Made by a program: the position numbers and the translations under genes
Part shown: one piece after another, positions 15,926 through 25,246 of the stretch
Layout: each line of letters opens with the position of its first letter
Position numbering within the stretch: position 1 is the stretch's first letter
Source: Fervidicoccus fontis Kam940
GTDB taxonomy: Archaea; Thermoproteota; Thermoprotei_A; Sulfolobales; Fervidicoccaceae
Direction: 5' to 3'
DNA: 64,000 bases
Assembly: GCF_000258425.1 (NCBI RefSeq)
Contig: NC_017461.1
Span: 682,001-746,000, forward strand
Notes under the pieces: generated by a model
The model's input: the letters and a program-made list of their open reading frames with translations, nothing else
Told to the model about the DNA's origin: nothing
Database searches by the model: none

Positions 15926-16008
15926 GCGGGGGTGCCCGAGCGGACCAAGGGGGCGGACTCAAGATCCGTTGGCGCAGGCCAGCGTGGGTTCAAATCCCAC
16001 CCCCCGCA
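15926..16008 (+). tRNA. tRNA-Leu (anticodon CAA)
   Basis: A class II cloverleaf of 83 nt. The acceptor GCGGGGG pairs with CCCCCGC, followed by discriminator A. The anticodon loop CTCAAGA gives CAA, there is a long variable arm (TTGGCGCAGGCCAGC), and the T arm is GTGGG-TTCAAAT-CCCAC. CCA is not encoded and no intron is present. It reads UUG leucine codons. Confidence 0.95.
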
Positions 16009-21957: not shown

Positions 21958-22380
21958 ATGACATGCCAGACACATGTAAAATTTTTGCTTTTGCCCCTGA
22001 TACTAGCCTCATTAATTTTAGCTTCAATTATATATGCATCTCAAGCAACCGGCAATCTATCAACAATTGTCCAAAATACAACCTTCAATTCAGAAAATTT
22101 GTTTGTATTATGCTATAGCGTGAACAGCGATTCTATAGCTATTCAAATAAAAAATGAAGATAATAAAGAATCTGTAGAAACGTTCGATGTAATTTTCATA
22201 AACACTCGCAATGAAACCATCGCTACATTAAACGGAATAAATTTAACTCTCTCACCTGGAGAAACAAAGGTTATACAAATCTCAAATGTGCCATTTAGCT
22301 TAAATCAAAATGTCGTTTTTCCAAAAGTTGTTGAAATTAGCAGTAATGAATACGAAATTCAAGTACCAGTAAACAGTTGA
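21958..22380 (+). CDS. Secreted or membrane-anchored protein of unknown function
   Basis: A 140-residue protein with an N-terminal hydrophobic signal (about 8-28, VKFLLLPLILASLILASII) and a beta-rich, Asn/Thr-rich exterior. Several N-x-S/T sequons (NLS, NTT, NET, NLT) suggest glycosylation. The segments IAIQIKNEDNKESVETFDVIF and LSPGETKVIQISNVPF resemble a small Ig-like or CARDB-like fold of the kind seen in archaeal surface proteins. It starts at ATG 21958 and stands alone, divergent from ubiX. The family is not recognised. Confidence 0.5.
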   Translation: MTCQTHVKFLLLPLILASLILASIIYASQATGNLSTIVQNTTFNSENLFVLCYSVNSDSIAIQIKNEDNKESVETFDVIFINTRNETIATLNGINLTLSPGETKVIQISNVPFSLNQNVVFPKVVEISSNEYEIQVPVNS

Positions 22381-23030: not shown

Positions 23031-23157
23031 TCACTTATCTGAATGAATCTCTTCAAGTATTAACTTTAAAAGGTTGAAATGCTCTAAATGAATTATGAAT
23101 AATATTAATTTCTCAAAAATTCCGATGAAGAAGATCCTAAATGCGGATGATCTATAG

Positions 23158-23580
23158 ATGAAGACAAACCCACGCAATGAGGAATTATATAGGCTCATTA
23201 GAAAAAAACTAGAGGGTTCTCCTTGGCTTGACGACTTACTCGCTCAGCTTACTGACTGCGAGGGTTCAGCATTTGATTCTATTATTATTTATGACTCAAG
23301 CGGAAAGTTGCACAAAGGGGTAAAAATGAGAGTAAAGCCTGTTCTAGAGTCAGATGGCTATTCTGTTGATTATGCAGAAAACATAACTTTACTAGAAAGT
23401 GAAAGTGACTGGGAAGAGTTGCCAAAATCGACAGAAAATTGCATAGACACAAGGATATTAAAGCAGGGGGAGCTAGTTGTAATAGAATGTATTGAACCAA
23501 AGCTTTCTTTAGAAGAAGTCTTCAGAATTATAAAAGAAATGGAAAGTCCTTCGGTGCTTTGCTATTATGAGTGGGAATGA
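23158..23580 (+). CDS. Uncharacterised protein coupled to XPB helicase
   Basis: A 140-residue acidic protein of no recognised family. Visible parts are a helical start (NEELYRLIRKKLEGSPWLDDLLAQL), a beta-rich middle (FDSIIIYDSSGKLHKGVKMRVKPVL, then YSVDYAENITLLESESDW), and a tail LEEVFRIIKEMESPSVLCYYEWE. It contains three or four cysteines without metal-site spacing. It starts at ATG 23158 after GGATGATC. Its last 14 bases overlap the start of the XPB gene, so the two are co-translated. In many archaea XPB is paired with the nuclease Bax1; this protein is far too short to be Bax1 and occupies the other side of XPB. Confidence 0.65.
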   Translation: MKTNPRNEELYRLIRKKLEGSPWLDDLLAQLTDCEGSAFDSIIIYDSSGKLHKGVKMRVKPVLESDGYSVDYAENITLLESESDWEELPKSTENCIDTRILKQGELVVIECIEPKLSLEEVFRIIKEMESPSVLCYYEWE

Positions 23581-25246
23581 TATTGCAGGCGGTAATCAAT
23601 TAAAATTTAGAGTTAAAGGCTGGATAGATAGAGAAATTTTTGCAAACTTAATGAGATTCAGTGATTATAAGGGAAGGGAGAATGGAGAAAGTCTTTTTGA
23701 AATAAATTACAAAAAGATCAGAGAGAATGGGATAACGTTAGAAGAAGTGCTTAATACACTAAAAAGCTTAGGGGACAAAGTTCCTCCCTTATCCATTCAA
23801 GCGCTAGAAAACATCATTAAAGGTGGAAACAAGATAACTCTCTATCTTGAAAATGACGAGATCGTCTTAAAGCCCAACAGCTATATAAAAGACTTATTTG
23901 TAAATCTTAAAGAATATTTGGTTTATGAAAGGGAGAAAAAAATATTTAAGGTATATCCAGGGAAATACTTCGATCTTTTAAAAAAAGCCAAAGACATAGG
24001 TCTAGAAATAGAGAACAAAACTGGACTTCCAGACAGCTTAAAAATGAGCAAAAAAATTAACTTCAAAGGAGAGCTAAGGAACTATCAAAAAGAAGCGTTA
24101 GAAAGTTGGAAAAATAATTCCTCTAGAGGAATTATCGCTTTACCTACAGGCTCTGGAAAGACTGTAATTGGAGCAGCTGCTATTGCAGAGCTAGGCGAGA
24201 TGACCTTGATAATAACTTACACGAAGGAGCAATTGCTACAGTGGATGGAGATGCTTAAGAACTTTACCGACATACCTCAATCAATGATCGCGGCCTTCTA
24301 CAGCGAAGAGAAGAGAATAGCTCCTATAACTATATCAACGTACCAAACTGCATTCAGACATATAAAAACTCTCGCTTATCGATTCAGCTTATTAGTAGTA
24401 GATGAGGTCCATCACCTCCCTGCTGATAAGTTCAAAACGATAGCTTTAGGAATGTACTCGCCACATAGGCTTGGGCTAAGTGCTACAGTCATTAGAGAAG
24501 ATGGAAAACACGTTGAGCTCTTTCCTTTAATGGGAGGAGTGATATACTATAAAACTCCTCAAGAACTTGTAGAAAAGGGATTCCTTTCTCCTTATGCAAG
24601 TTATATTGTTAAAGTCGGCCTGAGCAAAGAAGAAGAGGAAAAGTATGAAAAATTAAAAAACATCTATAAAGCCCTAACCCTAGGCATTCCTTTTGCGGAA
24701 GTTCTGAAAAGGGCTAAAAGTGGAGATTCTAGAATGGCAAAAGCGCTTAAAATACACAACGAAATGGTGCAGATCTATCAAAAAGCTAAGGCAAAAGAAG
24801 AGGCTGTTAAGAAAATCGTTGAGCAGGAGCTGAAAAACGGCTCCAAAATACTAGTTTTTACTCAATATGTAGAACAGGCCGAAAAACTGGGAAATATGCT
24901 TGGTGCGCCTGTGCTTACAGGCTCCACTGAAACAAAGCTGAGAAAGAAAATACTTGAAGATTTTAAAAAGGCGCAGAGCGGGGTGCTTGTACTTACTACG
25001 GTAGGAGATGAAGGTCTCGATATCCCTGATGTCAACGTTGGAATAATAGTCGCAGGAACAGGGAGCAGAAGGCAGTTTGTTCAGAGGCTGGGAAGATTGC
25101 TGAGACCTAAGCCAGAGAAGACTGCAAAGCTTTATGAAATCGTCACCAAGGGCACAGCTGAAGAGTCTTTAGCAAGAAAAAGGAAGAAGCTGGAAATAGA
25201 TTCGGATGAAAAGGAAAAGAAAAGCAAACAAACGAAGCTTTTTTGA
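23567..25246 (+). CDS. xpb: XPB-type DNA helicase/translocase (superfamily 2)
   Basis: An ATP-dependent DNA-opening enzyme of archaeal repair, related to the TFIIH subunit. 559 residues. The N-terminal damage-recognition-like region spans about 1-165. RecA domain 1 has Walker A LPTGSGKT (about 192-199), DEVHH (279-283), LSATVIREDGK with the RED motif (about 306-316), and a thumb-like helical insertion follows. RecA domain 2 has LTTVGDEGLDIPDV and QRLGRLLRPK. The tail is highly charged. The start is ATG 23567, inside the previous gene's last codons. No Bax1 gene follows; the next gene is an Mrp-like ATPase 100 bp downstream. Confidence 0.93.
   Translation: MSGNDIAGGNQLKFRVKGWIDREIFANLMRFSDYKGRENGESLFEINYKKIRENGITLEEVLNTLKSLGDKVPPLSIQALENIIKGGNKITLYLENDEIVLKPNSYIKDLFVNLKEYLVYEREKKIFKVYPGKYFDLLKKAKDIGLEIENKTGLPDSLKMSKKINFKGELRNYQKEALESWKNNSSRGIIALPTGSGKTVIGAAAIAELGEMTLIITYTKEQLLQWMEMLKNFTDIPQSMIAAFYSEEKRIAPITISTYQTAFRHIKTLAYRFSLLVVDEVHHLPADKFKTIALGMYSPHRLGLSATVIREDGKHVELFPLMGGVIYYKTPQELVEKGFLSPYASYIVKVGLSKEEEEKYEKLKNIYKALTLGIPFAEVLKRAKSGDSRMAKALKIHNEMVQIYQKAKAKEEAVKKIVEQELKNGSKILVFTQYVEQAEKLGNMLGAPVLTGSTETKLRKKILEDFKKAQSGVLVLTTVGDEGLDIPDVNVGIIVAGTGSRRQFVQRLGRLLRPKPEKTAKLYEIVTKGTAEESLARKRKKLEIDSDEKEKKSKQTKLF

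Follow-up and report, generated by a model that had tools for sequence, protein, structure and literature searches.

Which protein, if any, works together with the XPB-type helicase encoded in this stretch of the Fervidicoccus genome, and could it be the product of the small gene whose last codons run into the helicase gene? The source genome is a single contig of 1,319,206 bases, and the window, i.e., the whole 64-kb stretch analyzed here, corresponds to its positions 682001-746000. An earlier note, made from the letters of this DNA, had drawn attention to the small ORF, and had suggested that its product represents a different XPB partner or regulator, possibly acting in damage recognition or as an inhibitor, at a locus that lacks the Bax1 nuclease gene. 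The features on which this question turns are the following:

23158..23580, plus strand: companion ORF, a small acidic protein of 140 aa, with an ATG start and directly upstream of xpb1
23567..23580, plus strand: companion/xpb1 overlap of 14 nt, the presumed site of translational coupling
23567..25246, plus strand: gene of an XPB1-type helicase of 559 aa, with Pfam ERCC3_RAD25_C and ResIII matches; profile search sides with the stand-alone XPB1
23567..23920, plus strand: N-terminal extension of XPB1, residues ~1-118, outside the match to solved XPB2/RAD25 chains

The companion ORF is a protein-coding gene

The companion is an acidic protein with a computed pI of 4.6 and a net charge of -12. 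Its coordinates and its 14-nt overlap with the XPB gene were correctly given in the earlier note, and so was the statement that it has no recognized domain, as neither Pfam nor NCBIfam yields a single match at E<=1. Profile and sequence searches against solved structures returned no significant relative either. For the Shine-Dalgarno sequence that had been ascribed to the gene, support is weak: no exact match to the anti-Shine-Dalgarno complement exceeds 5 nt (TGATC), and this stretch is itself part of a conserved small-RNA element.

Conservation was assessed in a set of 98 relatives, own genome included, eight of which form the window's own family (f1, the Fervidicoccus relatives). A search of these 98 genomes with the companion protein found it in six, all of them from f1. 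XPB1 occurs in the same six of the eight f1 genomes, in each case with the small ORF immediately upstream on the same strand, so that the conservation of the pair in relatives, which the earlier note had wished to see checked, holds in every XPB-bearing genome of the family. The two remaining f1 genomes, which belong to one genus and are 61-71% complete, have neither companion nor XPB1. In each of the six XPB-bearing genomes the two frames overlap by 14-17 nt, if xpb is assumed to start where the profile match does; the mechanically called XPB ORF starts further upstream in two of them (G003 and G006).

The f1 companions are 22-41% identical to the window protein, and their alignment contains 15 invariant columns, including four cysteines (C34, C95, C111 and C135) that are shared by all six members; tryptophans are invariant as well. 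Once the sRNA overlap is removed, purifying selection is seen as a third-position excess in all six pairs of four genomes. The dN/dS ratio, computable in three of these six pairs, amounts to ~0.16-0.31, which is a rough figure given that dS values of 2-3 are near saturation. The companion ORF is therefore a genuine protein-coding gene under purifying selection. A second 140-aa ORF lies on the same strand upstream of the companion-xpb1 pair (window positions 21958-22380); its N-terminus includes a hydrophobic stretch, Pfam gives no confident match, and its product looks exported.

The helicase is of XPB1 type, for which no Bax1 binding is reported

A profile built from the six f1 XPBs matched XPB1 in 86 of the 98 genomes (E<=1e-60), with fragments only in G085, G093 and G097, and the full-length matches outside f1, within the order, range from E 1e-162 to 1e-218. 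In addition, 25 genomes contain a second, weaker XPB copy (E ~1e-80 to 1e-126), mostly adjacent to Bax1, as exemplified by G056 (Bax1 291173-292270, XPB 292260-293585) and G077. Nineteen of these 25 second copies begin at profile position 92 or later and therefore lack most of the N-terminal extension, the six from f3 beginning at positions 9-79. The four best matches to solved archaeal XPB2/RAD25 chains start at profile position 118-120, and the N-terminal extension of the window protein has zero Pfam matches. Because its profile scores and its N-terminal extension differ from those of the Bax1-linked second copies, the window XPB is, as judged from sequence, of the stand-alone XPB1/XPBI type and not the Bax1-linked XPB2. 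According to a published list, deletion of xpb1 in S. islandicus has no observed effect (PMC4471258).

The family PF05626 (Bax1/DUF790) was not found in the own genome or in any of the eight f1 genomes; by comparison, 27 of the 98 relatives have a match, as do 4 of 14 control genomes, including S. acidocaldarius. XPB2 was not found in the own genome. The earlier observation that no Bax1 gene is adjacent thus extends to the entire genome, in which no bax1-xpb pair was found. The contrast that had been drawn with Bax1 as the usual XPB partner took no account, on the other hand, of the type of XPB. In the account of PMC7293015, the interaction with Bax1 is reported for the XPBII product only, not for XPBI, and since the window helicase is of XPB1 type there would be no Bax1 vacancy beside it and the companion would be no replacement for Bax1. 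That the companion is a remnant or a minimal version of the Bax1 nuclease is hardly credible: its position next to an xpb gene fits such an origin, but the companion has zero PF05626 matches at E<=1, the XPB1-companion pair coexists with the XPB2-Bax1 pair in one and the same genome (e.g., G036 and G077), and the Bax1 N-terminal domain, for which PMC7293015 describes a beta-hairpin and then tri-helix bundles, is unlike either of the two companion models presented below.

A small gene upstream of xpb1 throughout the order

To look beyond the family, 83 XPB1 loci of the order were examined on their upstream side, a neighbor being defined as a same-strand ORF of 80-215 aa that ends between -60 and +90 nt from the xpb1 match start; different limits were applied for f2, for f3 and for one truncated locus of f11, which we take to be the Sulfolobaceae. 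Such an ORF is present at all loci of f1 (6/6), f6 (12/12), f9 (12/12), f10 (2/2) and f11 (12/12), at eight of the nine f8 loci (the ninth, in G014, has one slightly past the cut-off), at two of three in f4 (the third lies at a contig end), at two of four in f5 and at two of 11 in f3. Eight of the 12 f2 loci also have an upstream ORF, but of other kinds; these ORFs (110-aa and membrane types) were considered as companions and rejected, as they reach <=1% against the merged profiles described in the next section. Five f2 loci (L036, L040, L050, L051 and L053) share a different conserved ORF of ~110 aa, located 23-97 nt upstream of xpb1.

Outside the order, XPB1 occurs in three of five genomes of the class (G099, G100 and G102), each time with an ORF of 148-151 aa that ends 9-14 nt before the xpb1 match start. 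As a control, 3 of 32 mechanical window ORFs of at least 250 aa (XPB among them) have a neighbor of this kind. Most families of the order, and three further families of the class, thus have an ORF in the companion position. These ORFs are mostly 110-170 aa long, mostly acidic, and mostly either overlap xpb1 or lie no more than a few tens of nt from it.

When nine loci were read by eye over 7-17 kb, the companion and xpb1 were the sole neighbors common to all of them, the f9 small ORF, which falls under the size limit of this listing, having been identified in a separate upstream reading. Other genes recur near xpb1 in some families, under names that were assigned by eye and are presumptive: one f1 genome and the families f4, f8, f9 and f10 share AbrB-like and DUF72-like genes; f1, f8 and f10 have a gene of NUBPL type; f6 and f10 have genes resembling those of succinyl-CoA synthetase; and an oxidoreductase-like gene is common to f10 and two of the class outgroups. 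An HTH gene, likewise recognized by eye, also recurs in some of f1, f4, f8, f9 and f10. A conserved neighborhood is therefore not unique to the pair, and the companion-xpb1 pair stands out against a partly conserved background.

Do the companions form one family?

Pairwise comparison of the family profiles of companions gave weak matches. An N-terminal NPR/EPT motif common to several families was at one point taken to demonstrate homology. Because the D guide of a predicted sRNA (AACCCACGC) encodes this motif, it no longer counts as evidence at the protein level, and the profile comparisons were repeated without that part. With the RNA-encoded N-termini removed, and with profiles merged stepwise in an order of our choosing, the merged profile of the class outgroups, f3, f4 and f5 reaches a probability of 87% against f11 and of 65% against f10; after the addition of f11 and f10 it reaches 64% against f9, and after that of f9, 69% against f6. 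The window family joins this chain at only 8% (E 0.004), against the merged profile that includes f6, and f8 at 1% (3% at best), the maximum among 66 pairwise reversed controls being 4.8%. The membership of f1 therefore rests on position, fold layout and charge, and it is on these grounds that we infer homology between the window ORF and the companions of other families.

Predicted folds were obtained for the f1 companion (AF2 model, pLDDT 82.6, pTM 0.77) and for one f11 companion (pLDDT 90.4, pTM 0.82). Both display the element order H-H-E-E-E-(h)-E-E-H-E, a coarse likeness in which the short helix between the strand groups belongs to the f1 model only and an extra last helix to the f11 model only. 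Candidates for a known fold were sought with these models and set aside: for the window model the best Foldseek match has E 0.055 and the best VIA-align match Z 3.4, for the f11 model these values are E 0.11 and Z 5.0, and the leaning of the f11 list toward Sm/Lsm-like and MazF-like small barrels is too weak to use. The p52 subunit (clutch and C-terminal domain), p8 and Bax1 are absent among the Foldseek and VIA-align matches listed, an absence that is no disproof. Searching the PDB with the family profile produced a designed TIM barrel (E 0.012) and bL36 proteins (E 0.019 or worse), neither of which counts as a significant relative. The bL36 matches span companion residues 91-115, around C95 and C111, and may give a faint hint of metal binding. 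Four conserved cysteine columns are found in each of the f1, f6 and f9 companions and none in those of f11; where present, they could possibly form a metal site or disulfides. No relative of the companion was found in viral contigs.

Regarding charge, the median pI of the companions is 4.6 in f1 and 4.35-5.7 in eight other families, the class outgroups being outside this computation, and three single companions have a pI of 6.3-7.5. That nearly all members are acidic, that the companion is encoded first in the pair and that it diverges fast would all suit an inhibitor of XPB1, which might occupy the DNA path or keep the two lobes of the helicase separate as long as neither damage nor transcription stress arises. 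We regard such a role as quite unlikely, acidity being usual in chaperones and structural subunits as well.

A candidate C/D box sRNA at the start of the companion gene

The first codons of the companion gene coincide with a predicted RNA element, whose parts, together with one of its predicted partners, are as follows:

23118-23186, plus strand: predicted C/D box sRNA, overlapping the companion ORF start, placed by a leave-family-out model
23118-23123 (AATTCC) with 23181-23186 (GGAATT), plus strand: possible terminal stem of the sRNA, read by eye
23124..23130, plus strand: box C-like GATGAAG, from alignment and model
23157..23163, plus strand: box C'-like GATGAAG, holding the companion ATG (23158-23160)
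23167..23176, plus strand: putative D guide AACCCACGCA, predicted to pair with leucine tRNAs and also encoding the protein start NPRN
23177..23180, plus strand: degenerate box D, ATGA, from alignment and model
15926..16008, plus strand: tRNA-Leu(CAA), one of five predicted partners of the D guide

Alignment of the companion starts revealed a pattern at the DNA level, consisting of GATGA, the guide-like GGTTTTAAG, CTGA, a spacer, GTGATGA, AACCCACGC and a degenerate D box. Boxes C, D', C' and D thus follow one another in order and with guide-sized spacing, boxes D' (CGGA) and D (ATGA) of the window copy being degenerate. For a model built without any f1 copy, the window copy is the only hit in the 64 kb (E 1.1e-7), and a family model also places the sRNA at the companion start. 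The f1-free model recovers 14 of 18 loci outside its training, missing G002 and the three class outgroups. Thermodynamic folding was uninformative (z -0.61) and did not predict the terminal stem, and no Rfam 15 family matches the sRNA, whether in the window (gathering score) or in 15 loci searched at E<=1.

The sRNA is located at xpb1 in f1, f4, f6, f8, f9 and f10, at 41 of the 83 loci by the pattern and additionally in G004 by the model. The position of the companion start codon varies: in the window copy and others it falls within box C', in further copies within box C, and in several f9 copies and in f10 copies it follows the sRNA on its 3' side. A model made from 29 copies detects the sRNA at E<=1e-5 in 86 of the 98 genomes; in 40 of these 86, one of them from f3, it lies within 1.1 kb of xpb1, and where it is found in f2, f5, f7, f11 and the remaining f3 genomes it lies elsewhere. 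Its occurrence away from xpb1 in these families implies that it would be an RNA gene in its own right. Further copies were noted in G011, G091, G036 and G077, among others (L176, L183, L190 and L200). In two f8 genomes, the xpb1 flanks also hold an sR7-like C/D box sRNA on the minus strand (RF01310, just below the gathering score; L079 334-389 and L081 336-393).

Since the sRNA shares the 5' end of the companion gene, the first codons and the start site would be constrained by the RNA. This dual use of the 5' end, as companion gene and as gene of a C/D box sRNA with a D guide predicted to fit tRNA-Leu, is a separate proposal and better supported than the partner reading. The same overlap raises the question of whether the ORF might be a translated leader, which would mainly serve to bring ribosomes past a 5' end blocked by the sRNA as far as xpb1, and whose peptide would hardly matter. 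The overlap of the ORF with xpb1, the sRNA at its 5' end and the low sequence conservation between families speak for such a leader; the purifying selection within the ORF, the invariant cysteines and tryptophans of f1, the confident predicted folds of the f1 and f11 companions, and the fact that the ORF is also present in f5, in f11 and in the outgroups from the class, none of which yielded the sRNA at xpb1, speak against it and render it very improbable.

Predicted targets of the sRNA

With its D guide (AACCCACGCA), the window copy can form 10 Watson-Crick pairs with the T arm of four of the five leucine tRNAs and nine with that of tRNA-Leu(CAA). This genome has 43 distinct tRNA sequences, and the next best of them offers six pairs. 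In relatives, the D guide forms 9-12 Watson-Crick pairs with the retrieved leucine tRNAs in seven of seven tested. No recurring target of the D guide was found in the 23S rRNA plus flanks of nine genomes.

For the D' guide of the window copy, no target was found among the tRNAs of the genome, with six pairs at maximum, and f1 copies reach 5-6 at most. Four f1 copies (L025-L028) carry the D' guide GATCCTAAAT instead of GGTTTTAAG, next to a degenerate box D', and their presumed D' function therefore looks lost. In other families, the D' guide can pair with the anticodon loop of tRNA-Leu(UAA), forming nine Watson-Crick pairs plus one or two wobbles in G024 and G076, 8+1 pairs in G043 and 7+1 in G049; counting five from box D' by hand, the G076 guide would target U34. 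Guides for the wobble position of tRNA-Leu(UAA) and tRNA-Leu(CAA) are among those described in Pyrococcus (PMC7994747), and s2Um34 is one of the modifications reported, in this case in tRNA-Leu(UAG) of S. acidocaldarius (PMC7668247). A 23S stretch of GGTTAAGGCCCC type also recurs as a match of the D' guide, with 10-11 pairs including two wobbles, in six of nine genomes (L108, L109, L111, L113, L114 and L115), and might be a second target of the sRNA. In the case of the f8 D' guide, the T arms of several tRNAs of the window genome fit equally well as its own tRNA-Leu(UAA). The D' target is thus uncertain, because the 23S stretch and other tRNA T arms fit too.

Where companion and XPB1 part

The separability of the two genes was addressed with a profile of 24 companions (A6), from which f1, f6 and f8 were excluded and which was searched in 39 genomes. 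Clear matches were obtained in 11 of 13 f3 genomes, two of which are inside the profile, and in seven of these 11 the companion lies away from xpb1. In Ignisphaera-type genomes, it is found ~16-17 kb from xpb1 (G054 and G029) or on another contig (G062 and G068). In f2, none of 13 genomes has a match below E 0.01, though XPB1 is present in 12 of them. The N-terminal extension of XPB1 is kept in both f2 and f3, and therefore does not track an adjacent companion gene. In f7, none of five genomes has an XPB1 match, and two give a clear match to the companion (E 1.2e-9 and 6.2e-8; L248 4851-5483 and L249 4807-5277), with an AP_endonuc_2 gene, a weak PD-(D/E)XK match, topoisomerase VI B and a GlyA-like gene, read by eye, as neighbors. 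These f7 companions either have a role without XPB1 or are remnants. Absences in this search are soft, because A6 misses four known members (G000, G003, G049 and G126), and the window family was itself missed in the direct profile search.

The f2, f3 and f7 results count against the companion existing solely for XPB1. They bring to the fore a small protein that would share no more than its expression with XPB1, would not bind it, and would have a role of its own, for instance in nucleic-acid metabolism. The two f7 genomes that keep the companion without XPB1, the Ignisphaera-type genomes in which the two genes lie apart, and the recurrence of other genes near xpb1 in some families are all in line with such a protein; the adjacency to xpb1 across many families, with overlapping frames in several, argues in the opposite direction, and we consider an independent role of this kind somewhat unlikely.

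A proposed dedicated partner of XPB1

A small gene that is kept beside xpb1 across so many families is, for that reason, probably an overlooked partner of XPB1; the idea of a partner is a plausible one, and its basis now extends well beyond a single genome. In its full form, the most favored model states that the ORF product is a dedicated partner, made together with XPB1 and binding it, which would stabilize XPB1 or set its DNA-dependent ATPase, much as p52/p8 do for XPB in TFIIH and Bax1 does for XPB2; we assign to it slightly less than even odds (a probability of about 0.47). Of the earlier proposal of a different XPB partner or regulator, what stands is the partnership itself, which the pairing across order and class makes the best reading, and what falls is the notion of a substitute for Bax1.

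According to the partner model, the ribosome would start at the ATG inside box C' (inside box C or past the sRNA in other genomes) and produce the companion, and would re-initiate at, or be coupled into, xpb1 at the overlap. The companion would then bind XPB1, perhaps by docking on the ~110-residue N-terminal extension, the feature that separates XPB1 from most Bax1-linked XPB2 proteins. In principle, the start of companion translation would compete with the folding of a C/D particle on the same RNA.

A more far-reaching version can be envisaged, in which XPB1 and its companion form a two-subunit counterpart of XPB-p52/p8, the companion gating the ATPase via the N-terminal extension, and in which the transcript of six families becomes either a tRNA-Leu guide RNA, with L7Ae-bound k-turns, or the mRNA of companion and XPB1, so that the capacity for tRNA modification would be tied to the dose of XPB1. 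As a whole, this version is improbable.

If the partner model is true, the linked companion would be the missing subunit for in vitro studies of XPB1, and the companion-XPB1 pair would offer a system for the control of XPB outside both TFIIH and Bax1.

Comparison with known systems

In the open-licence literature we found neither a described partner for the crenarchaeal stand-alone XPB1 nor an overlap between an sRNA and xpb1, and an earlier description is possible. A close known system is the XPB2(XPBII)-Bax1 pair, in which the gene of a protein partner likewise adjoins that of an archaeal XPB; among the properties reported for Bax1 is that it alters the ATPase activity of XPB (PMC7293015, PMC13024598). 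The two systems differ in that Bax1 belongs with the other XPB paralogue, shows no sequence match to the companion, and is encoded by frames mostly of ~400-500 aa, compared with mostly 110-170 aa for the companion. The TFIIH subunits p52 and p8, which are described as docking on the N-terminal part of XPB and setting its ATPase (PMC6422496, PMC13024598), offer, on eukaryotic XPB, a functional analogy only; the searches made with the companion yielded no match in sequence or fold, and the N-terminal extension of the window XPB1 is without a Pfam match.

With respect to the RNA, archaeal C/D box sRNAs that overlap the 5' end of an ORF and contain its start codon account for 7% of the sRNA genes studied, as summarized in a review (PMC7994747), and in the tests it covers such a 5' overlap significantly lowered transcription of the downstream gene. 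The predicted window sRNA likewise holds the start codon of an ORF. It differs from the described overlaps in that the gene is the xpb1 companion, with a linkage that recurs in six families, and in that the same RNA has a D guide predicted to pair with the T arm of tRNA-Leu. Control of translation by L7Ae through a k-turn is a documented case for the l7ae mRNA (PMC5539422), and the two situations have in common a k-turn element near an archaeal translation start, whereas the element at the companion start is known from its sequence alone. The sRNA at the start of the operon would provide a natural case, spread over six families, of a guide RNA and a helicase operon that share their start region.
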